51,777 nucleotides of DNA from Cyclobacteriaceae bacterium (GTDB lineage Bacteria > Bacteroidota > Bacteroidia > Cytophagales > Cyclobacteriaceae). Positions 1,219-45,206 of the stretch are shown piece after piece (the first letter of the stretch is position 1; each line of letters begins with the position of its first letter). The translations under genes and the position numbers were made by a program. The notes under the pieces were generated by a model, which was not told the DNA's origin, did not search any database, and saw only the letters and a list, made by a program, of their open reading frames with translations. The DNA is taken from the NCBI GenBank assembly GCA_016787605.1, contig JAEUUE010000007.1, forward strand, positions 1-51,777, in the 5' to 3' direction.

Positions 1219-1226
1219 CCGCCGCC

Positions 1227-7121: not shown

Positions 7122-10100
7122 ATGAAGAACCTTTACCTCACTCTATTCTTACTCCTTTCCTACTGCGCCTACTCCCAGCCCGCCCAGGTTTCCGTCATCC
7201 AGAATGACCAGGGAATGAAGCTGCAGGTTAACGGAAGGGATTTCATGGTCAATGGGATGAACTGGGACTACTTCCCGGTGGGTACCAACTTTTCCTACAG
7301 CCTGTGGAACCAGCCCGATGACATCATCCAGGCGGCCCTGGATGCCGAAATGTCCCTGCTGAAAAACATGGGGGTGAACACGATACGCCAGTACACCGGT
7401 GTTCCCGCCCGGTGGATTACCTACATCTACCAGAATTACGGGATTTACACCATGCTGAACCACTCCTTCGGCCGGTATGGACTGACCCTGAGTGGCGCCT
7501 GGGTACCGAATACGGAGTATTCCGATCCTCGGGTGCGGCAATTGCTGCTGGCGGAAGTGACCCAAATGGTCAATGAATACAAGGATACGCCTGGCCTCCT
7601 GCTCTACCTCCTGGGAAACGAAAACAACTATGGTCTTTTTTGGGAAGGTGCGGAAACGGAAGACATCCCGGTGGAAGACAGAAAATCAACCGTCAAGGCC
7701 TATTCCCTGTATAAACTGTTCAATGAGGCGACTGTCGCCATGAAAGCCGTGGACAGGACGCACCCGGTGGCCATCTGTAATGGAGACTTGCTCTTCCTGG
7801 ATATCATCAAGGCCGAATGCAAGGACATCGATATTCTTGGTACCAACATGTATCGCGGTGTTTCTTTCGGCGATGCGTTCCAGCGGGTGAAGGATGAGCT
7901 CAATAAGCCAATCCTGTTTACCGAGTTTGGGGCCGATGCATTCAATGCACTATCAAGCACCGAGGATCAGCAGGCCCAGGCCTATTACATGGTGGGCAAC
8001 TGGAAGGAGATCTATCAAAATGCGGCCGGCCTGGGTAAGGCGGGCAATTCCCTGGGAGGATTCACCTTCCAGTTCAGTGATGGCTGGTGGAAATACGGCC
8101 AGACGACGAATCTCGACCTCCATGACGACAATGCCTCCTGGTCGAATGGCGGCTATCGCCATGATTTCGAAGAAGGAGAAAACAACATGAATGAAGAGTG
8201 GTTTGGTATCTGTGCCAAAGGGCAAACCACTCCCCGCGGTTTGTATTCCCTGTACCCCCGGGCCGCCTATTATGCACTCCAGGAAGCTCATTTGCTCGAT
8301 CCCTATAAAGCAGGAGTTACGGTCCAAAGTGTGGAAGATCACTTTTCCGGCATCCAATTGATGAACGCGGTCATCAAGGCGCGCGGCGACCAGGCGGCAT
8401 TGGTGGGAGAACAGTCGGCCAAACTACGCGTGAGCGAACTACGCGCAGAATTCACGACGTTCAATACCGGTGGCAAGCTCATTACCACCCCCGACAAGCC
8501 CGATCCGAACAACGTCACCTACCCTAACCAATTGGGATTTGACCACATGGAATCCTACTTCGTGGGCATTGAAGGAAAGCCCGCTTCCAACGTGCGCGCC
8601 AACGTGGTATTCAACATTCTGGGCAACGTGCCGCTGAATCCGATCAATGAAATATTCTATGAAAACAGGGGAAGGCCGCTGAATGTACAGACCCAGGCCG
8701 GTACCCAGGTGCTGAATGCGTTAAACCGCGTGGCGGTCTACAAGGCAGACTACACCTGGAACCACAAGTACTTTGACCTGCAGGGCTTTTTCCGGACGGG
8801 TCACTATCACTGGGGCTATGAAGGTGACTTCTTTGGCCTCTACCCGGAAGCCAACTATGGTCCCAACATCGACATCTATAATGGCAACGCTCCCCAGGGT
8901 GTTGAGTTTACCGGAAAAAGAGAGCTCAAAGGCATCAAGGTAGCCTTCGGCCGCGAGCTCTGGTGGGCGGCGAACCCTGCCGTTTTGGTCAAGTACAATC
9001 GGGAGGTGGGCAAATTAAACCTCACGGGAATTTTCCACCAGGACCTGGATGATCCGGGCCAGGCCATCAGTTCCATCGCCGTACCCCAGCCCCGGACAAC
9101 ACGACTCACCCTCCATGCGGCCACCAAGTTGTTTGACAAACTGAAGATCGAAGCAGGCGGTATCTGGGGTGGGCAACCCCTCGTCGGCCGCGAATTCCAG
9201 GTGGTCAAGGGACAGGAAGGGAGCTATGAAGTCTACGTGGACAAAGTCAGTGCGAAGGATACCTGGGGTGGCAAGTTGAAGGTCAGCTATTCGTCAGGCC
9301 CAATCAACTGGTATGCCCAGGCAGCTTCCCAGGGGTTGGTAGCCAACGGAGGTGCGGATTATACCAAGACCTTTACGGGTTGGTACCTCAAGGACAGTGG
9401 CAGCGGGAACAAGAACAACTTCTTTACCGGCTTCACCTACGGTGTTGGCAAATGGCAGATAGCCCCCAACTTCATGTGGCAGAAGCCGCTGGTCGATCCC
9501 ATCCCCAGCACCATCGGCGGCCCTGCACGGCCAAGGAACATCCTGGATGACCCTTTCGTGGTCAGGTCCAATCGCGAAACGGTGGCCGGAGAACTTTTGT
9601 TAACCTTCGATCCCACCCCGGGAACCTGGATGTACGAGTGGGACAATGACCGGGCTGAAGACGCCAAGTTTTCCACCAGCCTGGGCTTCGTGTACCGTCA
9701 TCTTCCCACCACGCAGGATGCTGCCGTTATTTTCCCCGGAACGGGACGTACTCCCGTGGCCGCTTCCGGTGCACCCCCCGCGCTGGACCTTTGGGAAGTC
9801 AATGCCCGGATTGTTTCCAAGCTAAATCCCTCCCTCGGCATCATCGCCAATCTGTATGGAGGCAACGGGCAGGCCAATGGACCTGATGCCCGTACCATCC
9901 AGCGTTTTGGCGGCGAAGTAAGAGTGATCTACAAGAAAATGAAGCTCGTCTCCCACCTGAAGTTTAATGATTGGGGACCTTTCGACTATCACCGGGACTT
10001 TAACCTCACCTTCCCGATACAATCGCTGATCGACCTGTCGGCTTCCGTGGGCAAACCGGACTGGTTCATCCTGCCCAGCACTTCGATTGGCGTGCAGTTT

Positions 10101-10250
10101 ATCTGGCGTTCCCTCAATCAGTACTCGCCGCGGTACTTGCCTAATGCCGCTGAAGAATTTGCCACTTCACCCATCATCAGCCCCGTTGGATTTCCCGATG
10201 GCAATGAATGGGAACTCAGAACCTATGTACGTGTAAGTGTCGGGAAATAA
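7122..10250 (+). CDS. Glycoside hydrolase (GH2/GH72-like TIM barrel) fused to an outer-membrane-like beta-barrel
   Basis: A 1042-residue protein with two distinct halves. ATG 7122 is chosen because it gives a clear signal peptide (MKNLYLTLFLLLSYCAYS); a TTG 33 bases upstream gives none. Residues about 20-410 resemble clan-A TIM-barrel glycosidases. The probable acid/base is Glu167 (LLGNENNYG) and the probable nucleophile Glu268 (FTEFGADAF). Residues about 440-1042 are long runs of alternating aromatic/hydrophobic and polar residues with short turns (for example WNHKYFDLQGFFRTGHY). They end in a strand, YVRVSVGK, as in outer-membrane barrels. The family position is uncertain: GH2 C-domain and GH72-like folds are both possible. 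As first gene of the glucan operon it is a candidate hydrolase-porin that could stand in for the missing SusC/SusD. Confidence 0.72.
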   Translation: MKNLYLTLFLLLSYCAYSQPAQVSVIQNDQGMKLQVNGRDFMVNGMNWDYFPVGTNFSYSLWNQPDDIIQAALDAEMSLLKNMGVNTIRQYTGVPARWITYIYQNYGIYTMLNHSFGRYGLTLSGAWVPNTEYSDPRVRQLLLAEVTQMVNEYKDTPGLLLYLLGNENNYGLFWEGAETEDIPVEDRKSTVKAYSLYKLFNEATVAMKAVDRTHPVAICNGDLLFLDIIKAECKDIDILGTNMYRGVSFGDAFQRVKDELNKPILFTEFGADAFNALSSTEDQQAQAYYMVGNWKEIYQNAAGLGKAGNSLGGFTFQFSDGWWKYGQTTNLDLHDDNASWSNGGYRHDFEEGENNMNEEWFGICAKGQTTPRGLYSLYPRAAYYALQEAHLLDPYKAGVTVQSVEDHFSGIQLMNAVIKARGDQAALVGEQSAKLRVSELRAEFTTFNTGGKLITTPDKPDPNNVTYPNQLGFDHMESYFVGIEGKPASNVRANVVFNILGNVPLNPINEIFYENRGRPLNVQTQAGTQVLNALNRVAVYKADYTWNHKYFDLQGFFRTGHYHWGYEGDFFGLYPEANYGPNIDIYNGNAPQGVEFTGKRELKGIKVAFGRELWWAANPAVLVKYNREVGKLNLTGIFHQDLDDPGQAISSIAVPQPRTTRLTLHAATKLFDKLKIEAGGIWGGQPLVGREFQVVKGQEGSYEVYVDKVSAKDTWGGKLKVSYSSGPINWYAQAASQGLVANGGADYTKTFTGWYLKDSGSGNKNNFFTGFTYGVGKWQIAPNFMWQKPLVDPIPSTIGGPARPRNILDDPFVVRSNRETVAGELLLTFDPTPGTWMYEWDNDRAEDAKFSTSLGFVYRHLPTTQDAAVIFPGTGRTPVAASGAPPALDLWEVNARIVSKLNPSLGIIANLYGGNGQANGPDARTIQRFGGEVRVIYKKMKLVSHLKFNDWGPFDYHRDFNLTFPIQSLIDLSASVGKPDWFILPSTSIGVQFIWRSLNQYSPRYLPNAAEEFATSPIISPVGFPDGNEWELRTYVRVSVGK

Positions 10251-10258
10251 AGCAGAGA

Positions 10259-11662
10259 ATGAACATGAAAACGAAACACCTTGTACAAGCCGTCCTTTTG
10301 GGATGTATGGGCAGCCTCCTATCCGGTTGCGAGCGCGGACTTTCCGGTGATGCCGAATTCGCCACGTTCCCGAAGAATCCCGATGTGTTCATCGATGGGT
10401 TCAGCAGCGGACTGGAATACCGTCCCTTTGCCGGATCTAAGTTCACGGCCTTTACGGTTGACAACCAGACGAAGTATGCCGGCTCCGCGGCGATGCGTTT
10501 TGATATCCCCAACGTGGGAGACCCTAACGGGGCCTTTGCCGGTGCCATTTTCCCGGACATGGGAGGCCGCGACTTGTCGGGCTACGATGCCCTTACCTTT
10601 TGGGCAAAGGCCTCGCAGGGAGCGACCATCAATGAGATTGGATTTGGCAATGACTTCGGCGAGAACAAGTACCTGGTTACGCTGAACAACATGAGAATTG
10701 GCACGGCGTGGACACAGTATACGATCCCGATCCCCGATCCATCCAAACTTACCTATGAGAAGGGCTTGTTCTGGTACGCGGAAGGACCTGAGGGCGGCAA
10801 TGGGTACACGATCTGGATCGATGAAGTAAAATTCGAGAAGCTCGGAACGGTGGCTCAGCCACGGCCCTCCATCCTCAATGGGGAAGACAAAACGGAGCAG
10901 ACTTTCATCGGAGTCTCCACCACGCTGACCGGGTTAACGCAAACGTTCAACCTATCGTCCGGGCAGGACGTTACGGTGGCGGCGGCACCTTCTTATTTTA
11001 CCTTCTCCTCAACCGACGTCGATGTGGCCCAGGTGAATGAGAACGGGGTCGTTTCGATCGTCGGAACGGGCACCGCTACGATAACAGCTGTACTCAACGG
11101 CGTAAAGGCCAAAGGTTCCCTGACCATTGAATCGCTGGGGACATTTCAAAATGCTCCCACTCCGCCGGCGCGCAATGCGGCGGATGTCATCTCGGTTTTC
11201 AGCGATGCCTACACCAACATCCCGGTGGATTTTTATAACGGCTACTTTGCACCCTTTCAAACCACGCTGGGCGGCGCAGATCTTACGATCAATGGGGATA
11301 ACCTGATTCAGTACACGAATCTGAATTTTGTGGCTACTGAATTCAAGAACCCCACGATAAACGTTTCCTCGATGACCCATTTGCATGTGGACATCCAAAT
11401 CCGGGAATCCATTGACCCTGGTGACTTCATCTCGATTGAACTGGGTGATTTTGGTGCGAATGGAGCCTTCGGAGGCGGGGATGATTCCAGCGCAAGAGTC
11501 CAGTTCACCAGCGGCAGTCTGTCCAGCAATCAGTGGATCAGCCTGGACATCCCCTTGTCGAGCTTTGTGATGGCCAGCAAGGCTAACCTGGCCCAGATAT
11601 TCTTCATATCCGATGCCACGATCTCAACCATCCTGGTGGATAACATGTATTTCTACAAATAG
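10259..11662 (+). CDS. Multi-module glycan-binding lipoprotein (CBM-like, Big2-like and C-terminal repeat module)
   Basis: A 467-residue lipoprotein starting 8 bases after the hydrolase-barrel gene; ATG 10265 is an equally good start. The signal ends in the lipobox LLSGC. The mature protein has a jelly-roll, CBM11-like domain (about 45-200, ending IWIDEVKFEKL). A short bacterial Ig-like domain (about 240-290; VDVAQVNENGVVSIVGTGTA) follows. The last module (residues 300-467) begins PTPPARNAADVISVFS and ends LVDNMYFYK. The same module occurs twice in the lipoprotein encoded at 12541-14775. No catalytic motif was seen. It probably binds glucan at the cell surface or in the periplasm; the position next to GH16 supports this, but the ligand is inferred. 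Confidence 0.75.
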   Translation: MNMKTKHLVQAVLLGCMGSLLSGCERGLSGDAEFATFPKNPDVFIDGFSSGLEYRPFAGSKFTAFTVDNQTKYAGSAAMRFDIPNVGDPNGAFAGAIFPDMGGRDLSGYDALTFWAKASQGATINEIGFGNDFGENKYLVTLNNMRIGTAWTQYTIPIPDPSKLTYEKGLFWYAEGPEGGNGYTIWIDEVKFEKLGTVAQPRPSILNGEDKTEQTFIGVSTTLTGLTQTFNLSSGQDVTVAAAPSYFTFSSTDVDVAQVNENGVVSIVGTGTATITAVLNGVKAKGSLTIESLGTFQNAPTPPARNAADVISVFSDAYTNIPVDFYNGYFAPFQTTLGGADLTINGDNLIQYTNLNFVATEFKNPTINVSSMTHLHVDIQIRESIDPGDFISIELGDFGANGAFGGGDDSSARVQFTSGSLSSNQWISLDIPLSSFVMASKANLAQIFFISDATISTILVDNMYFYK

Positions 11663-11680
11663 CGATTAAAGAAGATAAAA

Positions 11681-12514
11681 ATGAAGAGAGCCAATCAATC
11701 TGACGCTTCTGTGCTCGTCGTGATCGCCAAGCGCCTAGTTCTTTCCACCTTCTTTGCCCTGGCGTTGAGTTGCACGGATGATACGCAGCAGGTTGTCACT
11801 ATGGGCACCCTGGTCATGCAGGATGAATTCGACACGCCGGGTGCGCCGGACCCCACTATCTGGAATTACGATATCGGAACCGGACAAAACGGTTGGGGCA
11901 ACAATGAACTGCAGTACTACACCGATCGCCCGAAAAACGTCACCGTTCAAAACGGGTACCTGATCATCACCGCCGATAAGGAATCCTACAACGGGTCTTC
12001 CTATACCTCGGCCCGGCTGTTGACCAAGGGGAAATTTGCGCAGACCTATGGCCGCTTCGAAGCCCGCATGCGCCTGCCCTGGGGCCAGGGATTGTGGCCG
12101 GCTTTCTGGATGCTGGGTGCCGACATTGATTCCGTTACCTGGCCGAATTGCGGAGAAATTGACATCATGGAATACCGGGGACAGGACCCTACCATCCTGG
12201 TGGGCAGCGTGCATGGGCCGGGTTACTCGGGCGGCAACGCGATCTCCAAGAGCTATGAACTCAAGAACGATCGTTTCGACACGGGCTTTCACGTGTTTGG
12301 AATTGAGTGGGGTCCCTCCTACATCAACTATTACGTCGACGATGTGCTCTACAATCAAATTACCCCCGCGGATGTTCCGGGTACCTGGGTGTTCAACAAG
12401 CCCTTCTTTATCCTGATCAATGTCGCCGTCGGAGGGAATTTCGTGGGTGCACCGACCAGCGAGACGGTCTTTCCCCAGACGATGCTTATTGACTACGTGA
12501 GAGTGTACAAATAG
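11681..12514 (+). CDS. GH16 endo-beta-1,3-glucanase (laminarinase-like) lipoprotein
   Basis: A 277-residue lipoprotein with signal and lipobox ending at Cys31 (LALSC). It is almost entirely one GH16 jelly-roll domain. The signature GEIDIMEYRG carries the nucleophile Glu159, Asp161 and the acid/base Glu164. The beta-bulge form EIDIME is typical of laminarinases rather than of agarases or carrageenases without the bulge. Other family landmarks are LWPAFWMLG before the motif and the closing strand MLIDYVRVYK. The enzyme would cut beta-1,3- or mixed beta-1,3/1,4-glucan outside the inner membrane. It is 18 bases downstream of one binding lipoprotein and 26 bases upstream of another. The family is certain; the exact linkage preference is inferred. 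Confidence 0.93.
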   Translation: MKRANQSDASVLVVIAKRLVLSTFFALALSCTDDTQQVVTMGTLVMQDEFDTPGAPDPTIWNYDIGTGQNGWGNNELQYYTDRPKNVTVQNGYLIITADKESYNGSSYTSARLLTKGKFAQTYGRFEARMRLPWGQGLWPAFWMLGADIDSVTWPNCGEIDIMEYRGQDPTILVGSVHGPGYSGGNAISKSYELKNDRFDTGFHVFGIEWGPSYINYYVDDVLYNQITPADVPGTWVFNKPFFILINVAVGGNFVGAPTSETVFPQTMLIDYVRVYK

Positions 12515-12540
12515 AACTGTAACAAACAATCCTGACGATT

Positions 12541-14775
12541 ATGAAAATGCTTCTGAACATTACAAGGGTCATCCTCATCAGCATGGCGGCGGCCGCCATT
12601 TTCCTGGGATGCGTGGAGGAAACTGACGAAGTGCCCAAGGTTGTCGCGGGCTTTACCTTCACGGTTACCGAAGCTGGCACGGTTACCTTCCTGAACACCT
12701 CGGAGCGGGCCACCCGGTACGCGTGGGATTTTGGCGATGGGAAATCCAGCACCGAAATCAATCCTGTAAAAACATACGTGGCAGGAACCTATATCGTAAG
12801 CCTGACTGCTTCCAACGCAGCGGGAGCTTCGAATATCTTCAAGGATACGATCAACGTCATCATCAAGGACAAGATCAAACTTCCGGTCACGTTTGACGAG
12901 TCGAACACGGATTACAAAGTCACCACCTTCAATGGCGCTTCGTTTGCCATTGTAGACAATCCCAGTGTGGGGGGAACCAACAATACAGCCTCCAAAGTGG
13001 GCGCGATCACCAATTCCGGTGTCGCCTACGAGGGAATCTTCTTTGACTTTGAAACCCAAATCGACCTGGCGACCGAAAAGACCATCACCATGAATTTCCT
13101 CGCCAACGCGCCGGTCCCTGTCCTCCTGAAACTGGAAGAAGGCACCAGCGGCCCCATTGAGACAACGGTCACCCACGGGGGAACCGGCTGGGAGAAGCTT
13201 TCCTTCAATTTTACTTCGTCCGCGAAATACTCACGCTTGACCCTGTTTGTAGACGGCCCCGGCACCACCGCGGGCACTTTCCACATCGATGACATTGACC
13301 AGGAAGTGACTCCCATACCCACCTCGCCTCCCACGCCGGCTCCCACTCCTCCCGCCCGGGCCGCAGCTGACGTCATTTCCATATTCAGTGGTGCTTATAC
13401 CAACATCACAGGTGTCGATACCAATCCCAATTGGGGTCAGTCGACGGTGACCACGACGATCGATATCTCCGGCAACGCCACCCTCAAGTATCAGAACCTC
13501 AATTACCAGGGGACCGATTGGTCAGGCAATGCCCAAAATGTTTCCGCGATGGGATTCCTGCACGTTGACTTTTGGACCATCAATTCCACCGCCCTGAACG
13601 TATTCATCATCAGCCCTGGGGCAGAGAAGGCGAAGGCGCTGACGGTTCCCACCGGCGGAAACTGGACGAGCGTGGATATTCCGCTGACGGATTTTGCTCC
13701 TCCGGTCAATCTCTCCAACGTGATCCAGTTCAAGTTCGACGGGAATGGCACGATCTTCCTCGACAACCTCTACTTCTACAAAACGGGCGGCGGAGCTACC
13801 GTACCTACCACGGCCGCGCCTACTCCGCCGGCACGGGCCGCAGGCGACGTGATCTCCATCTTCAGTGGGGCTTACACCAACATATCCGGTGTGGATACCA
13901 ATCCTAACTGGGGTCAGGCGACGGTGACCACTACCATTGATATTGCTGGCAACGCCACCCTCAAGTATGCCGGTCTCAATTACCAGGGTACCGATTGGGC
14001 AGGCAATGCGCAGAATGTTTCGGCGATGACCCATTTGCACGTTGACTTCTGGACGGCCAACTCTACAGCCTTAAATGTTTCTGTCATCAGTTCAGGGCCA
14101 TTGGAAAAAGCAAAGGCACTGACGGTTCCCACGAATGGCAACTGGACCAGCGTGGATATTCCTCTGACCGATTTCACACCTCCTGTCAATCTCTCCAACG
14201 TCATTCAGTTCAAGTTTGACGGTAACGGGGATATCTACCTGGACAACCTGTACTTCTACAAGCCGGCCGGCGGTGGCGGTGGCGGTGGTGGCACCAACAT
14301 TGCCGCCAATGGGACCTTCGAAACGGGCACTGATTCGGGTTGGATCAGATTCCAAAATGGAGGAACGGCCGTCCTGGATAACACCGTCAACAACGGGGGA
14401 ACCTGGTCGGGCAAACTGACCACGAATGGACCCAGCAACCCGGCCTTCAAGCAGGAAAGAATTGGTGTGGGCACGGTAGCGGCCGGCAAGACGGTTCAGA
14501 TTTCCTTTGACCACAAGGGAACGGTGGTTCAGCCCGGTGCAGTATTCAATGTCATCCTCTTCGGCGAGGGCGCATCCGGGGCTTCCTTCACGCATGTCTT
14601 CAACCCCGCTCCCATCCCCGGATCAAACTGGACCACCTTTACGGGCAGTTTCGCCATACCCGGTGGAACCGATGTATCGCAGGGGGTTTCGTTCCTCATT
14701 GAAGCCGTCTGCGGTGGCGACGTTGGTTGCAGCGTTACCGCCAACATCGACAACGTCACGGTAACGGTCAATTAA
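12541..14775 (+). CDS. Large modular glycan-binding lipoprotein (PKD, CBM-like, two copies of the PTPPAR module, CBM4/9-like)
   Basis: A 744-residue lipoprotein (lipobox FLGC). A PKD domain spans about residues 32-105 (YAWDFGDGKSSTEINPVKTY). A CBM-like jelly roll (about 115-260) ends in HIDDIDQEV. Two near-identical modules follow, residues 268-414 and 427-574. Each starts PTPPARAAxDVISIFSGAYT and ends LDNLYFYK. An eight-glycine linker leads to a CBM4/9-like C-terminal domain (about 587-744; ANGTFETGTDSGWI to IDNVTVTV). No catalytic residues were recognised. The layout fits a surface glycan-capturing protein, possibly with the role that SusE/SGBP proteins play in Sus-type loci. Repeated modules would give avidity. 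The ligand is inferred from the operon to be beta-glucan. Confidence 0.75.
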   Translation: MKMLLNITRVILISMAAAAIFLGCVEETDEVPKVVAGFTFTVTEAGTVTFLNTSERATRYAWDFGDGKSSTEINPVKTYVAGTYIVSLTASNAAGASNIFKDTINVIIKDKIKLPVTFDESNTDYKVTTFNGASFAIVDNPSVGGTNNTASKVGAITNSGVAYEGIFFDFETQIDLATEKTITMNFLANAPVPVLLKLEEGTSGPIETTVTHGGTGWEKLSFNFTSSAKYSRLTLFVDGPGTTAGTFHIDDIDQEVTPIPTSPPTPAPTPPARAAADVISIFSGAYTNITGVDTNPNWGQSTVTTTIDISGNATLKYQNLNYQGTDWSGNAQNVSAMGFLHVDFWTINSTALNVFIISPGAEKAKALTVPTGGNWTSVDIPLTDFAPPVNLSNVIQFKFDGNGTIFLDNLYFYKTGGGATVPTTAAPTPPARAAGDVISIFSGAYTNISGVDTNPNWGQATVTTTIDIAGNATLKYAGLNYQGTDWAGNAQNVSAMTHLHVDFWTANSTALNVSVISSGPLEKAKALTVPTNGNWTSVDIPLTDFTPPVNLSNVIQFKFDGNGDIYLDNLYFYKPAGGGGGGGGTNIAANGTFETGTDSGWIRFQNGGTAVLDNTVNNGGTWSGKLTTNGPSNPAFKQERIGVGTVAAGKTVQISFDHKGTVVQPGAVFNVILFGEGASGASFTHVFNPAPIPGSNWTTFTGSFAIPGGTDVSQGVSFLIEAVCGGDVGCSVTANIDNVTVTVN
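13342..14262 (+). repeat. In-frame tandem duplication of a ~147-residue module
   Basis: Copy A is 13342-13782 and copy B is 13819-14262, separated by a short Thr/Pro/Ala linker. They are very similar at both DNA and protein level, which suggests a recent internal duplication. A more diverged third copy ends the neighbouring lipoprotein (11156-11659). Confidence 0.9.
14269..14292 (+). repeat. GGC/GGT microsatellite encoding an eight-glycine linker
   Basis: Alternating GGC and GGT codons give eight glycines between copy B of the repeated module and the CBM4/9-like domain. Because units are in triplets or sextuplets, slippage would change only linker length. Confidence 0.8.
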
Positions 14776-14808
14776 CGCCGCGCAGAACAATCTCAGAGAA
14801 GTCAGGAC

Positions 14809-14833
14809 AGGTCGGGTCTTCACGGCCCGACCT
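14809..14833 (+). terminator. Strong 8-bp hairpin inside the glucan operon
   Basis: AGGTCGGG (14809-14816) pairs perfectly with CCCGACCT (14826-14833) around a 9-base loop. It follows the last surface lipoprotein and precedes the first cytoplasmic enzyme. No T-tract follows, so it may be a weak or attenuating terminator, or an mRNA stabiliser, rather than a full stop. Confidence 0.5.
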
Positions 14834-14871
14834 CTCCCGCCTCCTGAATTCTTTCACCCAGGGTTTACTGC

Positions 14872-17800: not shown

Positions 17801-18315
17801 ACCGGCTAATCCAGCACTATGACGAGATCAATGAGGGCATTGGCGTGCACAAGTCACCCGCCCTCTACGGCGCCTTCCCTACCGATCCGTACTCGCATAC
17901 ACCCGCCAACAAGGGAGCTCAGCAACCCGGAATGACCGGGCAGGTAAAGGAAGACATCCTTTGCCGCTTTGGAGAGTTGGGCGTACGGGTAAGCGAAGGT
18001 CAACTGCGTTTCGATCCCCGGATGCTGAGGAGAGCAGAGTTCCTGACGAAGAAACAACTCTTCACCTGCGTCGATCTCCAAGGAAAACCCATGGAACTGA
18101 CGCTCGAAAAAGATTCCCTGTGTTTCACCTATGGCCAGGTTCCTGTGGTGTACAGGCTGGCCGACACGAACGGCCTCGAAGTTCATTTGGCTGATGGCGC
18201 CGTGGTACGGGGCGAAAACCTTGACCTTGATCTTGCGCTGAGCAAAAAGGTGTTTGGCAGAACCGGGGAAGTAAGCAGGATAATTGCCCGGGTGGACAAA
18301 GCGATGCTTCGGTGA
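14872..18315 (+). CDS. Beta-1,3-glucan/oligosaccharide phosphorylase-like (GH149/GH161-type)
   Basis: A 1147-residue protein without signal peptide, therefore cytoplasmic. ATG 14872 is preferred to ATG 14884 because AGGG lies 8 bases upstream. The size and layout match the inverting phosphorylases of the GH94-related group: an N-terminal beta-sandwich (about 1-330), a linker, a long (alpha/alpha)6 domain (about 380-1040) and a C-terminal beta domain. The probable general acid is Asp646 in RPEWNDANN. A conserved-looking stretch, GYEGLGSIYWHMVSKLLL, lies near the expected phosphate site. Such enzymes convert beta-1,3-gluco-oligosaccharides plus phosphate to glucose 1-phosphate. The setting among GH16, GH17 and GH3 genes fits GH149 or GH161, which I cannot separate by eye. 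Its stop overlaps the GH3 start by one base. Confidence 0.68.
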   Translation: MLPNMKKNEQPQLTLVRMENEVYYQISNVDKMRPFFMSLLSASNHWLFIGSNGGLSAGRKDAEQALFPYTTDDKIIESAELTGSKTILRVQKDGQSHIWEPFASEYANLYSLQRNLCKSIRGHKILFEEVNHDLGLTFQYQWSTSDLYGFVRQSRLINSNPSEISVSLLDGIQNIMPSGVGSALQSQRSNLVDAYKRNELEKESGIGIFALSAIIVDKAEPSEALKANIAWSIGVNPSKRLLSSMQLDHFRKGLPLHEEVDVKAEKGAYFVQADLSLEPKTKEEWMIVADVNQSVTQIINLSKSISTDKHLGFRIKEDIESGTRQLLLLNAAADGLQLTADPLKDTRHYSNVMFNLMRGGIFDSHYQIEKQDLSSSIAKANREVFTRHQEKLSALPNTLSVAALRNFAQTAGDRDLARLCLEYLPLKFSRRHGDPSRPWNQFSINIRNESDGSKVLDYAGNWRDIFQNWEALALSYPEFLEGMIFKFLNASTFDGYNPYRITKNGIDWEKIEADDPWSYIGYWGDHQIIYLLKFLELSESYAPEKLASYFEEEVFVYANVPYKIRRYEDILRNPKDTIDFDHPLDRSIQERRAALGADSALLQNRKGYIHHVNFIEKILATVLAKISNFIPEGGLWMNTQRPEWNDANNALVGHGVSVVTLCYLRRFLKFFVSVLEKSRTREVRISEELAQYFEGCRNTLYSHQHVLKGPISDKDRKSILDGLGTAGSQFRVKVYAESFSDNRRVLSLQEIIEFSELCLRYLEHSIRANKRSDGLYHAYNLMTLENGEEISISYLSEMLEGQVAVLSSGYLTSKEALETLDGLKASRLFRADQNSYLLYPNKDLPGFLEKNNIPGAEVRKSSLLSSLLKEGNRQILEQDAQGGFHFNGNFRNAADLRRALEGLDGDKFPRTPSDQEEVLQLFEKVFNHKAFTGRSGTFFGYEGLGSIYWHMVSKLLLAVQECCLKAIREGENETLVNRLIQHYDEINEGIGVHKSPALYGAFPTDPYSHTPANKGAQQPGMTGQVKEDILCRFGELGVRVSEGQLRFDPRMLRRAEFLTKKQLFTCVDLQGKPMELTLEKDSLCFTYGQVPVVYRLADTNGLEVHLADGAVVRGENLDLDLALSKKVFGRTGEVSRIIARVDKAMLR

Positions 18316-20072
18316 TGCAAGAAGGAGCCAAACACGATGACTTGACCAGACAGCGGGTAGAATCTCTGCTGGCGAGGATGACCCTGGACGAAAAGATAGG
18401 CCAGATGACGCAGGTCCGGCATTTTGATGACATCACTCCGGAGGACATTAAGAGCAAATACATTGGTTCGGTAATCCACACACAGGGTCCCCTTCCGGGA
18501 CGGGATGCCGCCGAATGGCAAGACAAATTCACCGAGTTTCAAAAGCTGGCCTTGTCCACACGCCTTGGCATACCCCTGTTGTTCGGTGTGGATGCCGTGC
18601 ACGGTCAGAACACCTACGAAGGCGCCACGATCTTTCCGCATAACATCGGCCTGGGTGCATCCCGGAATGCTGACCTGGTAGAAAAGGCAGCCGCCATCAC
18701 CGCCATCGAGTCCAGGGCCACCGGGTTCAATTGGGTTTTCTCCCCGTGCGTGGCCATCCCCTACAATGAAAAGTGGGGACGTGTATACGAAGCGTTCTCG
18801 GAAAGCACGGAAATCACCACTGAGCTGACCCGGGCCTCCGTGCGCGGCCATCAGGGCGGAGCGGATAACCACCGCGTGATGGCTACCGCCAAGCACTTCA
18901 TAGGAGATGGGGCCACTGATTTCGGCGTGGAAGGCGGCTCGTCTTCGCTGAACCGGAAGGAAGTTTACCAGCGACTTCTTCCACCCTACCAGGCGGCCAT
19001 CGAAGAGGGCGTGGGTTCGGTAATGGCCTCCTTTAACAAACTGGATGGCATCTCCATGCACGCTCACAAAGCCTTGATCACCGACACGCTGAAGGGCACC
19101 ATGAAGTTCAACGGCATTGTAGTCTCCGACTGGAAAGCCTATTCCCGCTTTGGGGGCACCGATATCATCAATGCCGGTATCGACATGGTAATGGCGGTTG
19201 ACGGGGACCTGGATTCCTTCCGCGATGGCGTCAGGAACGGTGTGCTCAGCGGAGTGATCCCCCAGGAAAGAATTGATGATGCTGTGCGCCGGATACTCCG
19301 CCAAAAATTCCGGTGGGGTCTGTTTGACCGGCCTTTTCCTGATAAAGCGCTGATCGGGCAGATAGGCACCTCCGCCCATCGCGCCGTGGCTCGCCAGGCG
19401 GTGAGAGAGTCTTTGGTATTGCTCAAGAATGAAGGCAACGTGCTGCCCCTCCGCAAAGAGACCCGGCTCGCGGTAGTCGGTGAATTCGGAAATAGCTCGG
19501 GGCTACAGTCAGGCGGATGGACGGTGAACTGGCAAGGAACCCTGGAGAACTATCGAGGCGCAACCACCATTCTCGACGGCATCAGGAGTATCGCCACCGG
19601 AGAGGTGGTTTATGACCCGGATGGCAGCGTACCCCAGGATAATTTGGACGTCGCCGTAATTGTTGTCGGCGAAACGCCTTATGCCGAATTCTTCGGCGAC
19701 ATCGGAGGGGAAATGAACAAGTATCAGCTTACCCTTCCTGAACGTCACCAACGATACCTCACGGCCTACCGGGAGAAGGGCATCAAGACCGTTGTGGTTT
19801 TAATTTCGGGTAGACCCCTCGTAGTCACTCCACAACTTGAACAATCGGATGCTTTCGTGGCGGCCTGGCTTCCCGGCTCCGAAGGCGGTGGCATTGCTGA
19901 CGTGTTGTTTGGTGAATATGACTTCAGTGGAAAGCTCCCCCACTCCTGGCCCAAAGCAGAAGAAGACTATCAGGGAAAATATGGTCCCAATTTCTGGGAC
20001 GGTTCCATCGTCCCGCTCTTCCCTATTGGGTACGGATTGAACTACGGAACCTCACAGGCAAGAAAGAATTGA
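18315..20072 (+). CDS. GH3 beta-glucosidase, cytoplasmic
   Basis: A 585-residue enzyme starting at ATG 18315 in a TGATG junction with the phosphorylase gene; a GTG one codon earlier is possible. No signal peptide is present, unlike most Bacteroidota GH3 enzymes, so it should act inside the cell. The TIM-barrel half holds the nucleophile Asp272 (GIVVSDWKAY), the substrate-binding Lys193-His194 (TAKHFIGDGAT) and the GVDAVHGQN motif. The second alpha/beta sandwich half begins near residue 370 and ends GYGLNYG. The sequence resembles exo-beta-glucan glucohydrolases with the KHFIGDG motif. It would release glucose from short beta-1,3-glucans left by the phosphorylase or the GH17 enzymes. There is no C-terminal Fn3 extension. 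Confidence 0.9.
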   Translation: MQEGAKHDDLTRQRVESLLARMTLDEKIGQMTQVRHFDDITPEDIKSKYIGSVIHTQGPLPGRDAAEWQDKFTEFQKLALSTRLGIPLLFGVDAVHGQNTYEGATIFPHNIGLGASRNADLVEKAAAITAIESRATGFNWVFSPCVAIPYNEKWGRVYEAFSESTEITTELTRASVRGHQGGADNHRVMATAKHFIGDGATDFGVEGGSSSLNRKEVYQRLLPPYQAAIEEGVGSVMASFNKLDGISMHAHKALITDTLKGTMKFNGIVVSDWKAYSRFGGTDIINAGIDMVMAVDGDLDSFRDGVRNGVLSGVIPQERIDDAVRRILRQKFRWGLFDRPFPDKALIGQIGTSAHRAVARQAVRESLVLLKNEGNVLPLRKETRLAVVGEFGNSSGLQSGGWTVNWQGTLENYRGATTILDGIRSIATGEVVYDPDGSVPQDNLDVAVIVVGETPYAEFFGDIGGEMNKYQLTLPERHQRYLTAYREKGIKTVVVLISGRPLVVTPQLEQSDAFVAAWLPGSEGGGIADVLFGEYDFSGKLPHSWPKAEEDYQGKYGPNFWDGSIVPLFPIGYGLNYGTSQARKN

Positions 20073-20097
20073 CTATGAACAGAAAAGGCTTACATCC

Positions 20098-21396
20098 ATG
20101 AAACGGGCACTCAGAACATCCCTTATGGTGGTCGTTTTGTTCGGGGCGTGGTCCTGTGGCCCTCGGCAGACAGAGAGACATTCGGAGGAAACAACTAAAC
20201 AGAGTAACGTGACAGCGAAAGATATTTTGGGCAACCCCAGGTACCAGGCCATTTGCTACGAAGGATACCGGGAGAAGTCGAGAGGTATGCAGCCTACCCT
20301 TGATCAGCTTAAGGAGGATCTTCGAATCATGTCGGCCATGGGTATCAGAATCCTGAGAACATATAACGTAAGAGACACCTTGCCCCACGCTGCCAATTTG
20401 CTCAGGGCCATACGTGAGATGAAGGCCGTCGACCCATCCTTCGAAATGTACCTGATGCTCGGTGCCTGGATTGACTGCAAGAATGCCTGGACGGACCAGG
20501 CGCCCGACCATAGCGTTGAGAGTGAGATGAATGAAGGAGAAATCAACAGGGCTGTGGCGCTGGCCAATCAATATCCTGACATTGTCAAAATCCTGGCCGT
20601 GGGGAATGAAGCGATGGTCAAGTGGGCCACCAGTTACTATGTGCAGCCTTCGGTGATTTTGAAGTGGGTGAATCACCTGCAGTCGCTGAAAGCGGCCGGT
20701 AAGCTGCCCAAAGACCTTTGGATTACCAGTTCGGACGACTTTGCTTCCTGGGGTGGCGGAGATGCCAGCTATCACACCGAAGACCTGGTGAAACTGATCA
20801 AGGCCGTGGATTACATATCCATGCACACCTACCCGTATCACAACACCCATTACAATCCGGAGTTTTGGCGAGTCCCCAGTGAGGAAATGTCGCGGCCCGA
20901 AATCCAGCAGATTGACTCCGCTATGGTGCGGGCGAGGGATTTTGCGCGGTCGCAATACCTGGCCGTGAAGAAGTACATGCACAGCGTCGGTGCAGACAAG
21001 CCGATTCACATTGGCGAGACGGGCTGGGCCACCATCTCCGACGGTTTTTACGGAGCGGAAGGCTCAAGGGCTACCGATGAATACAAGCAAGGGCTGTACT
21101 ACCGGCACATGCGGGAATGGACAAACGCAGCCGGCCTGTCCTGCTTCTACTTCGAGGCCTTTAATGAGCAATGGAAAGATGCGGCGAATCCGGACGGGTC
21201 AGAGAATCACTTTGGGGTGTTTGGTCTCCAGGGTGAGGCGAAGTACGCGATGTGGGACCTGGTGGATAAAGGCATCTTCAAGAACCTCACGCGGGGCGGC
21301 CATCCCATTGTCAAGACCTATAATGGCGATATCAAGAAACTCTTGCGCGAAGTGAAGGCACCTCCCGCAAGAGCCAACCCGTCCGTCAAACACTGA
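20098..21396 (+). CDS. GH17 beta-1,3-glucanase/transglycosylase lipoprotein
   Basis: A 432-residue protein with signal and a lipobox-like GAWSC, so probably tethered to a membrane outside the cytoplasm. The TIM barrel has the GH17 acid/base Glu171 (LAVGNEAM) and nucleophile Glu307 (HIGETGW). The aromatic motif CFYFEAFNEQWK follows. GH17 enzymes hydrolyse or rearrange beta-1,3-glucan chains. It is only distantly similar to the two cytoplasmic GH17 domains encoded next, and it carries a longer insertion before the nucleophile. It lies 25 bases downstream of GH3 and 45 bases upstream of the transporter fusion. It probably shortens GH16 products before import. Whether it is an endo-glucanase or a transglycosylase is open. 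Confidence 0.87.
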   Translation: MKRALRTSLMVVVLFGAWSCGPRQTERHSEETTKQSNVTAKDILGNPRYQAICYEGYREKSRGMQPTLDQLKEDLRIMSAMGIRILRTYNVRDTLPHAANLLRAIREMKAVDPSFEMYLMLGAWIDCKNAWTDQAPDHSVESEMNEGEINRAVALANQYPDIVKILAVGNEAMVKWATSYYVQPSVILKWVNHLQSLKAAGKLPKDLWITSSDDFASWGGGDASYHTEDLVKLIKAVDYISMHTYPYHNTHYNPEFWRVPSEEMSRPEIQQIDSAMVRARDFARSQYLAVKKYMHSVGADKPIHIGETGWATISDGFYGAEGSRATDEYKQGLYYRHMREWTNAAGLSCFYFEAFNEQWKDAANPDGSENHFGVFGLQGEAKYAMWDLVDKGIFKNLTRGGHPIVKTYNGDIKKLLREVKAPPARANPSVKH

Positions 21397-21441
21397 GAGC
21401 GGTATACTTAACCTATTCATAAAGCCTAAAGACTTCAAGCC

Positions 21442-23775
21442 ATGTCTACCCCAGCAAATACGGTCCCGTTCGGTCAGAAAGTAGCGTTCGGTGTGGGAAT
21501 GCTCGCCAATCAGATGTTCCCGGCCGTGCTGGGCATTTTCATGGTGGTTTTGGTACAGGACCTTGGCTTCCCGGGCTGGATGTGGGGAATCATCTTTTTC
21601 CTGCCGCGTGTCTTCGATGCCATAACGGATCCCATCATGGGATACATTTCCGACAATACCCGGTCGCGCTGGGGCAGGCGGAGGCATTACGTGTTCCTCG
21701 GGTCCATCCTGATGGGGATTTCCTTTGTGATTATGTGGCAGTTATACCGGGAGAACGGTGTGACCTACAATTTCTATTTCTTCATGTTCTGGTCCTTCAT
21801 CTTCTACCTCGGTCTGACACTGTTCAGCGTACCTTACGTAGCGATGGGATACGAGATGAGCAACGACTTCCATGAGCGGACCGGCATTATGGCGGTGGCC
21901 CAATGGATCGGCCAATGGGCCTGGGTAATTGCTCCCTGGTTCTGGGTGGTCATGTACGATAAGAACTGGTTTGAATCGGCCGATGTGGCCACCCGCACGC
22001 TGGCGGTTTGGGTGGGCATCACCTGCAGCCTTTTCGCCATGGTCCCGGCCATTTTCATCAAAGGCCAGTCTACGCTTCACGAAAACTACGCCCCGCTCAA
22101 CCTGAAGTCCATCGGCGGAAGCCTCAAAGACATCCTTAAAAGTTTCAAAGAAGCGTTCACTTCGGTACCCTTTCGGAAGCTGTGCATCGCGACCTTCTTC
22201 ATTTTCAACGCCTTTAACACGATCGCAAGTTTCTCCTTTTTTATCGTCGTCTATCATCTCTTTGACGGCGATACCGGTGCGGCGGGAATCTGGCCCACCC
22301 TCTTTGGCAGCCTCGGAGCGGTATTTACCACCTTCGTGGTGATCCCTATTGTGGCCGCCCTGTCGAAGAAGATGGGCAAGAAGCGGGCCTTTGTTCTTTC
22401 GCAAGGCATTTCCCTGGTGGGCTATATCATGCTCTGGTTCCTGTTCATCCCGGGCAAGCCGTACATGTTCATATTCGCCTTGCCGTTCTTTTCGTTCGGG
22501 ATCGGGAGTCTCTTCACCCTTATGATGTCGATGACCGCCGACGTCATTGACCTCGACGAGCTCAGTACCGGCAAGAGGCGCGAGGGGATTTTTGGAGCCA
22601 TCTATTGGTGGATGGTGAAGGTGGGTTTTGCCGTCGCCGGCCTCCTCAGCGGCGCCATCATGACTATCGTGGGTTTCGACGCCACAGCAGCCGCTCAGCC
22701 CGAAGGTGCGATCACCGGTCTCCGGATGTTCTACTCCGGCATTCCAATTCTCGGAACCCTGGTGGCCATCTACGTGATGCGCGACTATGATGTCACGGAA
22801 GAACGTTCCAACGCGGTACGAGCCGAACTGGAGGCACGCAAGGCAGGCACGCCATCCAAGTACCACTCGTATTACCAGAAGGAAAAGTTCCTGGCCATTC
22901 CGGGGGTTTCCACCTTGCCCACCGATATTGACTTTGCGTCAAAGTCGGCCGTTCAAGTCAGGCAACTGTTCCGAAGCACCCTGGAACAAGGGCTCCACGG
23001 CATTTGCTTCAGCCCTTACATGGAGGGGCAGAACATCGGCGACCAGCTTAGCGAGGAACAGATACGCAGGCGGATGAAAGCCATTAATCCATATACGAGA
23101 TGGATTCGCTCCTTCTCGTGCACCGACGGGAATGAATTTATTCCCCAAGCCGCCCGTGAGCAGGGCCTAAAAACCATGGTGGGCGCCTGGATCGATGGCA
23201 ATAAAGAGAATAACGAGAAGGAGATTGCCGCGTTGATCAAACTGGCCCAGCAGGGATATGTGGATATCGCCGTGGTCGGAAACGAAGTGCTTCTGCGAAA
23301 TGAGTTGACCGAAGAGGAAGTCCTTGACTACATCCGTAGGGTGAAAAAGGCATTGCCCAATTTGCCGGTGGGATATGTGGATGCCTACTATCAGTTCAGG
23401 GACCGTCCTGCCCTTTCGGCGACCTGTGATCTGATTTTGGTCAACTGCTACCCCTTCTGGGAAGGTGTGCGCATAGATCATGCTTCTGCATACCTGAAGG
23501 AGATGTACGCCGTAGCCCAACGAGCCGCACAAGGAAAGAAAGTGATCATTACCGAAACGGGTTGGCCCGACCAGGGATCGAAGAATCAGGAAGCCTTGCC
23601 CTCGGAAGACAATGCCATGAGGTATTTCCTCAATGCCCAGCATTGGGCCAGGCAAGAAAAGATCGAAATGTTCTATTTTTCGTCCTTTGACGAGTCCTGG
23701 AAGGTTCGCCATGAGGGAGACGTGGGACAGCGTTGGGGATTATGGGACAAGAATGAAAATCTAAAATACAAGTAG
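21442..23775 (+). CDS. GPH/MelB-type sugar transporter fused to a C-terminal GH17 domain
   Basis: A single uninterrupted 777-residue frame. Residues 1-446 form a 12-helix glycoside-pentoside-hexuronide transporter with the family motif FDAITDPIMGYISD. Asp59 and Asp63 there match the MelB cation-site pattern, and TRSRWGRRRHY follows. After a charged linker (447-482) comes a complete GH17 barrel (about 483-777) with acid/base Glu615 (VVGNEVL) and nucleophile Glu705 (TETGW). With 12 helices and a cytoplasmic N-terminus the GH17 domain lies in the cytoplasm, where it could cut oligosaccharides as they arrive. The next gene encodes a free version of the same domain. The join has no stop or frameshift. 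The fusion is seen directly; coupling of import to hydrolysis is inferred. Confidence 0.9.
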   Translation: MSTPANTVPFGQKVAFGVGMLANQMFPAVLGIFMVVLVQDLGFPGWMWGIIFFLPRVFDAITDPIMGYISDNTRSRWGRRRHYVFLGSILMGISFVIMWQLYRENGVTYNFYFFMFWSFIFYLGLTLFSVPYVAMGYEMSNDFHERTGIMAVAQWIGQWAWVIAPWFWVVMYDKNWFESADVATRTLAVWVGITCSLFAMVPAIFIKGQSTLHENYAPLNLKSIGGSLKDILKSFKEAFTSVPFRKLCIATFFIFNAFNTIASFSFFIVVYHLFDGDTGAAGIWPTLFGSLGAVFTTFVVIPIVAALSKKMGKKRAFVLSQGISLVGYIMLWFLFIPGKPYMFIFALPFFSFGIGSLFTLMMSMTADVIDLDELSTGKRREGIFGAIYWWMVKVGFAVAGLLSGAIMTIVGFDATAAAQPEGAITGLRMFYSGIPILGTLVAIYVMRDYDVTEERSNAVRAELEARKAGTPSKYHSYYQKEKFLAIPGVSTLPTDIDFASKSAVQVRQLFRSTLEQGLHGICFSPYMEGQNIGDQLSEEQIRRRMKAINPYTRWIRSFSCTDGNEFIPQAAREQGLKTMVGAWIDGNKENNEKEIAALIKLAQQGYVDIAVVGNEVLLRNELTEEEVLDYIRRVKKALPNLPVGYVDAYYQFRDRPALSATCDLILVNCYPFWEGVRIDHASAYLKEMYAVAQRAAQGKKVIITETGWPDQGSKNQEALPSEDNAMRYFLNAQHWARQEKIEMFYFSSFDESWKVRHEGDVGQRWGLWDKNENLKYK

Positions 23776-23777
23776 CT

Positions 23778-24662
23778 ATGTCATCGAAGTCGAAGAAGAT
23801 CCTGGCCCTGGCCGGCCATGATTACCAGGGCATAACCGAGGAAGAACTGGTCGAACTCTACCGGAAAACCCTGAAGGGAGGGATGCATGGATTGTGCTTC
23901 AGTCCCTATGTGGAAGGTCAAAAGCCGGGTGACCAGCTTACGGAGGCCCAGGTGCGCCGGAGAATGGATATCATCCGGCCCTATATCAAATGGGTCCGCT
24001 CCTTTTCGTGCACGGAAGGAAACGAATACATTCCCCAGATTGCCAAGGAGTACGGTGTCAAGACGCTGGTCGGCGCCTGGCTAGGCAAGGATGACAAGAT
24101 CAACGAGCAGGAGATTGAAGGCCTGATCCGTGTGGCCAAGGCCGGCTACGTCGACATCGCCGCCGTGGGCAACGAGGTCATGTATCGCGGGGACCTCACG
24201 GAGGATCAGCTGCTTGCGTTCATCGACAGGGTGAAAAAGGCCCTGCCCAATATTCCCGTTGGATACGTGGATGCCTACTACGAGTTTGGGCACCGGCCCA
24301 GGATTACCAATGCCTGCGACGTTATCCTGGCCAACTGCTACCCCTATTGGGAAGGTTGTCATTGTGATTACTCCCTGTTGTACATCAAGGATATGTACAA
24401 CAAGGCCATGCGCGCAGGAAGAGGAAAACGGGTAATCATCTCTGAGACCGGCTGGCCGAGCCAGGGCACCAGCCTCCGGGCCGCCGAACCGTCTGATGAG
24501 AATTTCATGAAGTATTTCATCAACATTCAGAAGTGGTCGAAAGAAGACGGCATTGAAGTCCATTACTTCTCTTCCTTCGATGAGTCGTGGAAAGTGGGCG
24601 CTGAAGGCGACGTAGGCGCGTACTGGGGTCTGTGGGACAAGGATGAAAAACCCAAGTACTGA
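23778..24662 (+). CDS. Cytoplasmic GH17 beta-1,3-glucanase (paralogue of the transporter-fused domain)
   Basis: A 294-residue single-domain protein with no signal peptide, starting two bases after the transporter fusion stops. Acid/base Glu133 (AVGNEVMYRG) and nucleophile Glu223 (SETGWPSQG) are intact. It aligns over its whole length with residues 483-777 of the preceding protein, sharing blocks such as WVRSFSCTEGNEYIPQ and VKKALPN.PVGYVDAYY. The pair therefore arose by duplication, followed by fusion or fission. It should act on imported beta-1,3-gluco-oligosaccharides, feeding the phosphorylase and GH3. It is the last gene of the operon; a convergent gene ends only 4 bases away. Confidence 0.9.
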   Translation: MSSKSKKILALAGHDYQGITEEELVELYRKTLKGGMHGLCFSPYVEGQKPGDQLTEAQVRRRMDIIRPYIKWVRSFSCTEGNEYIPQIAKEYGVKTLVGAWLGKDDKINEQEIEGLIRVAKAGYVDIAAVGNEVMYRGDLTEDQLLAFIDRVKKALPNIPVGYVDAYYEFGHRPRITNACDVILANCYPYWEGCHCDYSLLYIKDMYNKAMRAGRGKRVIISETGWPSQGTSLRAAEPSDENFMKYFINIQKWSKEDGIEVHYFSSFDESWKVGAEGDVGAYWGLWDKDEKPKY

Positions 24663-33120: not shown

Positions 33121-33127
33121 ATTGGTC

Positions 33128-42338: not shown

Positions 42339-42345
42339 GAAAGGG

Positions 42346-43125: not shown

Positions 43126-43460
43126 GCGTTCAATTCAAATATACGAGACATCAGCTGCCATTTTTCACCCGGCTTTGTCCCGGGCAACGGCTGCTGAAAC
43201 CGCCACATGAGCTCTTCCCACGCTTGCACGTCAGGATTGTCGCTATCCAGGCGCACTTTGTTTTCGAAGGAGAAACTGTCGGTGGTGACCATAACCATAA
43301 AAAGGCGGTTCTGCCATCGGTAGATTTCCATGCGAAGTATTCCTGACTCCGTAAGGCTCGCACGAATCGCTTCCGGAATCTGCCGGTGATAACGCTCATA
43401 ATCGGCGATCAGTGCGGCGTCATCTTTGAGATCCAGGGCAAGGGCGAATGTCTGGGGCAT
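43122..43460 (-). CDS. Sugar mutarotase of the RhaM/DUF718 family, probably for L-fucose
   Basis: A complete 112-residue protein, typical length for the L-rhamnose mutarotase family. It shows the expected early YERYHRQIPEAIRASL helix with the His used in anomer exchange and the late WEELMWRFQQPLPG signature. The family is named for L-rhamnose. In this operon a role on L-fucose is more likely, giving the right anomer to the dehydrogenase whose gene overlaps by 4 bases. There is no rhamnose isomerase or kinase gene in the window. The 52 bases upstream of its start hold an array of GTTCAA repeats. Confidence 0.85.
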   Translation of the reverse strand: MPQTFALALDLKDDAALIADYERYHRQIPEAIRASLTESGILRMEIYRWQNRLFMVMVTTDSFSFENKVRLDSDNPDVQAWEELMWRFQQPLPGTKPGEKWQLMSRIFELNA

Positions 43461-43466
43461 AACTCA

Positions 43467-43497
43467 GTTCAACGGTTCAAGGTTCAACAGTTCAATG
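43467..43497. repeat. Degenerate GTTCAA repeat array
   Basis: Four imperfect units, GTTCAAC, GGTTCAA, GGTTCAACA and GTTCAATG, stand in a row between the lactonase and mutarotase genes. Arrays of this heptamer type are known from intergenic spaces in Bacteroidota. It interrupts the otherwise nearly gapless fucose operon. Confidence 0.7.
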
Positions 43498-43512
43498 TTT
43501 ATTAAAGCTAAG

Positions 43513-44343: not shown

Positions 44344-44347
44344 CGCT

Positions 44348-45202: not shown

Positions 45203-45206
45203 CGCA

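Follow-up and report, generated by a model that had tools for sequence, protein, structure and literature searches.

The window analysed here is the 51,777 nucleotides of contig JAEUUE010000007.1 from a Cyclobacteriaceae bacterium (assembly GCA_016787605.1, 3.98 Mb in 191 contigs, 98.9% complete). At positions 7122-24662 it holds nine open reading frames (ORFs), all on the plus strand and with intergenic gaps of less than 100 bases, which I call P0001 to P0009 in gene order (Table 1). An earlier note on this DNA took them for a beta-1,3-glucan operon, and the ORFs together with family searches confirm this. The first gene, P0001, joins a glycoside hydrolase (GH) to a predicted outer-membrane beta-barrel, and I consider it probable, though well short of certain, that this is an operon for the utilisation of beta-1,3-glucan of the laminarin type which has in P0001 an outer-membrane entry point of its own.

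P0001 likely starts with the ATG at 7122, where a signal peptide can be recognised by eye. From 111 homologs, 89 were retained at less than 88% mutual identity, and dropping L099 and L125 (L125 stops at a contig edge) and adding the window sequence gave an alignment (A1) of 88 rows. The AlphaFold2 (AF2) model of the full-length protein has a mean predicted local distance difference test score (pLDDT) of 78.1 and a predicted template-modelling score (pTM) of 0.63. In a Foldseek search with this whole model, GH158 structures occupy ranks 1-6 (E 3e-13 to 8e-12), and below them, among the 50 matches listed, stand mainly GH2 enzymes with some outer-membrane proteins. The GH2_C TIM barrel is what Pfam reports, for residues 81-296 only (E 5e-8), yet the closest solved folds are those of GH158, and GH2 was rejected as the family of the enzyme. 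All 88 A1 sequences share N166, E167 and E268, which match in kind, paired by motif and without superposition, the catalytic residues N136, E137 and E220 of the endo-laminarinase BuGH158 (PDB 6pal; PMC7157763). The TIM fold of GH158, with an asparagine-glutamate acid/base and a glutamate nucleophile, is found in the P0001 model, with weak sequence matches (profile E 3e-4 for 6pal and 4.2e-3 for 9oro; single sequence E 0.065). BuGH158 has an immunoglobulin (Ig)-like C-terminal domain and lies in a SusC/SusD locus (PMC7157763), whereas the P0001 model lacks the Ig-like domain and has linker helices and the predicted barrel instead. Fold and catalytic residues together suggest that this half of P0001 would be an active enzyme.

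The barrel half has no Pfam match even at E <= 5, and neither a Plug nor a TonB_dep_Rec match is found in P0001, whose N-terminus is taken up by the enzyme domain. Modelled alone (alignment A2), the barrel half reaches a pLDDT of 78.6 and a pTM of 0.77, and the 50 Foldseek matches listed, of 797, are all outer-membrane barrels (TonB-dependent transporters, porins, LptD and a chain of the Mtr complex). Over the 26 strands of the model, a count that omits two strands of five residues, the mean loop length is 19.7 residues after odd strands and 4.7 after even strands (Mann-Whitney p 3.5e-4). Outer-membrane barrels have long outer loops and short periplasmic turns, and the up-and-down strands and loops of P0001 show this arrangement by prediction. 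With the short turns in the periplasm, the alternation puts both ends of P0001, and hence the enzyme domain, on the periplasmic side in this model, so that the enzyme would cut during or after entry and not at the surface. The coupled outer-membrane import proposed in the earlier note is still conceivable, with the side of the enzyme changed. In mean column identity the barrel and the enzyme half differ little (64% over 88 rows; 67% over 28 rows), and the predicted fold suggests that this half may conduct glucan chains.

A scan of contigs gave at least 584 confirmed relatives of P0001, from which 80 loci were kept. In 79 of the 80 loci a homolog of P0002 directly follows the barrel gene; the one remaining locus, L037, runs to a contig edge. 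The contig of L037, with a fusion at 68% identity, is labelled Thermoanaerobaculia and is likely a mis-binned Bacteroidota contig. The start of P0002 is probably at 10259 or 10265, and its lipobox LSGC is followed directly by ERG; a lipobox-like Cys is present in 53 of 75 orthologs, mostly with acidic residues right behind it. Its Big_2-like domain scores 20.8 bits, under the Pfam cut-off of 22.8, and a search for PDB relatives turned up nothing useful. SusC/SusD transporters likewise pair a large outer-membrane barrel with a lipoprotein gene; in contrast to these, P0001 has no plug or TonB-dependent Pfam domain and carries a fused enzyme, and its partner is not SusD by Pfam. I regard P0001 and P0002 as a candidate SusC/D-independent entry system for glucan.

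Table 1. The nine genes of the operon, the parts of P0001 (residues numbered from the ATG at 7122) and the divergent regulator gene, with positions in the window
Feature	Position	Strand	Reading	Evidence
P0001	7122..10250	+	GH158-like clan GH-A domain, helical linker and predicted outer-membrane beta-barrel	
P0001 catalytic domain	about residues 22-400		GH158-like, clan GH-A	
P0001 helical linker	about residues 401-430		helical linker	helices at 401-428 in AF2 model
P0001 barrel	about residues 435-1040		predicted plug-less outer-membrane beta-barrel of about 26 strands	
P0002 (Lp2)	10259..11662	+	lipoprotein with Big_2-like domain, probable surface glycan-binding partner of P0001	lipobox
P0003	11681..12514	+	GH16 lipoprotein, probable endo-beta-1,3-glucanase	Pfam GH16 2.9e-25, lipobox ALSC
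P0004	12541..14775	+	PKD and CBM_4_9 modular lipoprotein, probable surface glycan-binding	Pfam, lipobox FLGC
P0005	14872..18315	+	GH149 beta-1,3-glucan phosphorylase, signal peptide not seen	NF058639, 6hq6
P0006	18312..20072	+	GH3 beta-glucosidase, signal peptide not seen	Pfam GH3 1.2e-66, GH3_C 1.3e-43
P0007	20098..21396	+	GH17 endo-beta-1,3-glucanase, probable lipoprotein	6fcg match, Cys20 by eye
P0008	21442..23775	+	GPH/MFS cation symporter with C-terminal GH17, predicted cytoplasmic	MFS_2 1.5e-63, GH17 8.9e-13
P0009	23778..24662	+	cytoplasmic GH17, glucanase or glucanosyltransferase	Pfam GH17 4.7e-12
Divergent regulator	4072..6933	-	propeller repeats, C-terminal helix-turn-helix (HTH)	weak Y_Y_Y, below cut-off

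Among the other genes, P0004 matches PKD_4 (5.1e-12) and CBM_4_9 (1.8e-9) in Pfam, and its residues 114-227 match PDB 8qx6 ('PKD domain-containing protein', E 1.6e-21); the domains of P0002 and P0004 suggest that both bind glycan. At E 2.3e-185, P0007 matches the PDB chain 6fcg, which bears the name GH17 family glycoside hydrolase; the Cys20 of P0007 was recognised by eye and does not fit the simple lipobox pattern. I take 6fcg to be FbGH17A, an endo-laminarinase of Formosa. The biochemistry and crystal structure of a Formosa endo-laminarinase have been described (PMC6246565). The earlier note had called P0005 a GH149/161-like phosphorylase, of which the GH149 phosphorolysis stands: P0005 scores 1762.5 bits against the NCBIfam GH149 equivalog NF058639 (cut-off 1150) and aligns over residues 13-1141 to 6hq6, and because of this score and the near full-length match it is assigned to GH149 and not to GH161, which was rejected as GH149 scores far higher. 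The GH17 part of P0008 matches 4wtp at 4.1e-31 and is 59% identical to P0009, and a search of the host genome for relatives of P0009 found only the three GH17 stretches of the operon. The fusion of a major facilitator superfamily (MFS) transporter to GH17 has been published (PMC6246565, PMC10108472), and the idea that it couples hydrolysis to uptake dates from 2018 (PMC6246565). In G132, a genome of the same family, the order GH149-GH3-GH17-MFS/GH17-GH17 is kept (L143-L144) and the barrel, Lp2, GH16 and PKD genes were not seen there; this locus has the genes for the inner steps of the pathway without those for the outer ones.

These genes would allow the following pathway. The surface lipoproteins P0002 and P0004 would hold the glucan while the GH16 enzyme P0003 nicks its chains, as lipoboxes and domains suggest. 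The chains may then cross the wide, plug-less barrel predicted for the C-terminal half of P0001 and would be cut on entering by the GH158-like domain at its periplasmic mouth, the side indicated by the loop lengths, and further trimming in the periplasm could fall to the GH17 lipoprotein P0007. Import of the oligosaccharides would be the task of the GPH symporter P0008, whose cytoplasmic GH17 domain, together with P0009, would hydrolyse or re-lengthen them; GH149 would release glucose-1-phosphate, and GH3 would finish the short ends. Lengthening followed by phosphorolysis would be a division of labour like that of MalQ and MalP, which is speculation, as is the idea that, with cutting on the inner side, glucan would in effect enter in one direction only, without TonB.

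In a sample of 296 Bacteroidota genomes, P0001 has matches at E 1e-3 in 43 and is present at full length and in one piece in 27. A profile of the barrel matches 30 genomes, namely the 27 with full-length fusions, G259, where the fusion is split over contigs, and G290 and G175, which have broken copies or remnants; a separate intact barrel gene was found in none of the 296. GH149 was found in 51 genomes, that is, in 29 of the 30 barrel genomes and in 22 of the 266 others (p 3e-25, which is not independent since the genomes are related). The earlier note had proposed to look for such co-occurrence, and for the phosphorylase it holds. The fusion is patchy in the host genus, where it occurs in six of 36 genomes including the host, some of them incomplete, and in family f41 matches at 1e-40 were obtained for 25 of 67 genomes. 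In the 51 loci with flanks of at least 9.5 kb on both sides, GH16 is always present (51/51) and GH149 in 44.

The earlier note's statement that the locus has no SusC/SusD was borne out. No SusC-like ORF was found in positions 1-36000 of the window, which in this respect differs from a SusC/SusD polysaccharide utilisation locus (PUL), and in a search of the whole host genome PF07980 (SusD) matches lie only on two other contigs, C103 and C38. When the SusC/SusD pairs of the host served as queries for a search around the 80 loci, no SusC/SusD was found in 45 of the 51 well-flanked loci. The GH149 neighbourhoods of 51 genomes (50 plus the window, with one broken copy in G160 read on one of two contigs) include 27 with the fusion, 24 of which have no SusC+SusD pair and three of which have one (G110, G159, G281); a SusC-like match alone is present in three of the 27 (G091, G108, G187). 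The 24 neighbourhoods without the fusion have SusC+SusD in three cases (G160, G179, G190) and a lone SusC-like match in six. A PF07980 match, PF07980 being the only SusD family searched, is lacking in five of 41 fusion genomes (G108, G123, G200, G259 and G310, 99-100% complete). Loci without susCD have been published (PMC5827456, PMC10108472). The earlier note's idea of a SusC/D-free system is favoured by these five genomes for the species concerned.

Twelve copies of the enzyme have no barrel, a set that excludes three weaker enzyme relatives (G133, G195, G262). By simple patterns, the first catalytic motif is present in 11 of the 12 (not in G360), as is the second (not in G160), and a lipobox-like motif in six; of the other six, one, G160, may by eye have such a Cys. 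Decayed barrel sequence stands behind a stop codon in three copies (L153 in G175, L238 in G373 and L242 in G371), in which the loss of the barrel is therefore secondary. Of six genomes in genus g73, two carry the fusion and four the enzyme alone. The order is SusC-SusD-GH16-lone enzyme-GH149 in G160 and G351 and a contig edge followed by SusD-GH16-lone enzyme in G352, as if without its barrel the enzyme used the SusC/D gate. In G179 SusC-SusD-GH16-GH149 stand together and the lone enzyme lies elsewhere on the contig. A simple swap of barrel for SusC/D, tested in g73 and f41, did not hold as a rule, as the fused g73 genomes keep SusC/D and no pair was found near the barrel-less copies of g103 in the stretches fetched.

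Tentatively, and with real reservations, I propose that P0001 and P0002 form an unrecognised class of importer, a TonB-independent barrel of about 26 strands with a periplasmic endo-glucanase that traps the chains by cutting them, which can replace SusC/SusD in Bacteroidota. A number of observations weigh against P0001 as the entry point of the operon. Alignment A1 is shallow as AF2 input (effective number of sequences, Neff, 2.1), the TM-scores of the barrel matches in Foldseek are just about 0.2-0.4, which supports the class of fold and not the exact number of strands, and P0001 does not end in the aromatic residue that is common at the C-terminus of outer-membrane proteins. An MFS gene is present in 27 of the 27 barrel loci among the GH149 neighbourhoods and is fused to GH17 in 10 of them; P0001, with its predicted barrel, and P0008 both carry an enzyme, as the earlier note had it, but an enzyme on both gates is not general among these loci. 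Among the 80 loci the fused form accounts for one of 11 complete MFS ORFs, 25 further MFS genes being cut by the locus end. The host has its two SusC/SusD pairs elsewhere, SusC and SusD stand near the fusion in six of the 51 well-flanked loci, and G108, without a PF07980 match, carries a SusC-like match on the fetched stretch, which leaves room for a TonB-dependent transporter in that genome. The C103 SusD is 38% identical to the SusD beside GH16 and GH149 in G160, a closeness similar to that of the SusDs which accompany the fusion in G110, G159 and G281 (33-35%). The two fused g73 genomes keep an orthologous orphan SusC-SusD pair, and around the barrel-less copies in g103, G360 and G297 the stretches fetched, in part short, show no pair of SusC and SusD (a lone SusC-like match is present in L240 and L242 among those of g103 and G360), which suggests that the barrel is dispensable in some strains.

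The earlier note had named a SusC/SusD pair elsewhere in the genome, induced along with the operon and needed for growth on beta-1,3-glucan, as what would refute its model, and in gene content part of this is present, as there are two such pairs and the one on C103 lies with a GH3. This C103 pair (L003) also lies with two PF10091 proteins and a laminin-G-like lipoprotein. PF10091 presumably comprises GH144 beta-1,2-glucanases, and C103 may hold another beta-glucan locus. The C38 pair sits among ORFs which by eye have an alpha-glucan appearance.

Both the host pairs and the six loci with SusC/SusD near the fusion would fit a barrel that is a mere membrane anchor for a periplasmic laminarinase, with the oligosaccharides entering through SusC/SusD or another TonB-dependent transporter encoded elsewhere, and the lipobox-like motif in six of the 12 barrel-less copies looks as if anchoring had needed a replacement. 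However, about 26 strands far exceed what an anchor needs, barrel and enzyme half have similar identities, and the five fusion genomes without a PF07980 match speak for another route, so that I hold the anchor to be unlikely, though it deserves to be taken seriously. In classical autotransporters the order is passenger, linker and barrel, and P0001, with its helices at 401-428 between enzyme and barrel, has the same order; its N-terminal enzyme could thus be threaded through the C-terminal barrel and work outside the cell. Such display seems improbable, as known autotransporter barrels have about 12 strands, as the loop lengths fit a periplasmic N-terminus, and as some barrel-less copies have no lipobox-like motif, which is expected of a periplasmic enzyme. 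That the operon serves another glucan, or transport other than import, for example the recycling of the cell's own periplasmic glucans, would agree with a GH3 at the place where typical laminarin loci have GH30_1, but I find it highly improbable, as GH149, GH16, GH17 and GH158-like folds all indicate beta-1,3-glucan, P0007 is close to 6fcg, and the lipoproteins and the GPH importer fit uptake.

The type of locus is known. The variant 1/B laminarin PUL of Formosa sp. Hel1_33_131 and others (PMC6246565, PMC6298971, PMC10108472) shares with the window the GH16, the GH17 pair, the GH149 and the MFS-GH17 fusion, and the window has both its combinations, GH16 with two or more GH17 and GH149 with an MFS fused to GH17. 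In its published form this PUL has a GH30_1 beta-1,6-glucosidase at the position where the window has GH3; GH30 is present in L043. One variant 1 laminarin PUL, from a metagenome-assembled genome (MAG), is without susCD (PMC10108472), and GH149 of Bacteroidetes has been reported both in PULs and in carbohydrate-active enzyme (CAZyme) clusters without susCD (PMC5827456). The laminarin PUL of Muricauda lutaonensis (PMC13188888) shares a 'GH2' beta-glycosidase, GH16, GH149, GH17, MFS and GH17; many clusters in that paper begin with a LuxR-type regulator and some have GH3. Its 'GH2' is taken as a plain enzyme, the available text names no outer-membrane transporter, and the words 'TonB' and 'SusD' are absent from the main text. 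Elsewhere an unclassified GH0 is listed in laminarin PULs, as GH149-GH0-GH30_1-GH17 in one MAG and as GH149-GH0-GH16_3 in another, in which it is among the top 10% of expressed genes (PMC10108472). Judging from gene order, this GH0 and the 'GH2' probably belong to the P0001 family. In the accessible portions of the laminarin-PUL literature, including PMC6298971, PMC6794258 and PMC11345257, the barrel half is undescribed, and among the titles and abstract beginnings listed from the open-licence literature none mentions a glycosidase, GH158 or other, fused to a porin or barrel. The kind of locus, the MFS-GH17 fusion with coupled uptake and versions without susCD are already known, and the enzyme-barrel fusion was not found described in these sources.

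As a sugar, laminarin plays a major part in the marine carbon cycle. The papers cited, as far as their available text goes, base their models of its uptake on SusC/SusD. Should the barrel prove to be the gate, surveys based on counts of susCD would overlook a class of laminarin users, a gene that is probably listed as plain 'GH2' or 'GH0' would really be an importer, and species with laminarin genes and no SusD would be explained. P0001 would then also offer a simple test case for import that is driven by cutting rather than by TonB.

The divergent regulator, which has a weak response-regulator HTH match at residues 888-942 and a homolog in 62 of the 80 loci, likely responds to glycan. Upstream of the operon, at 64-4044, lie genes for an HlyD-type adaptor, a MacB/FtsX permease and a TolC-type outer-membrane protein, and a second MacB/FtsX-type gene is found downstream at 37363-39786. 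The second GH16 of the host is a protein with a type IX secretion system (T9SS) sorting domain, and its contig is without a PF07980 match. Outside the operon, the window also holds GH43 and GH18 genes (33122-34126 and 50177-51286) and, at 39925-47284, a cluster with an FMN dehydrogenase, an MFS transporter, an amidohydrolase, a short-chain dehydrogenase and a mandelate racemase-type enzyme, which possibly serves the catabolism of sugar acids.

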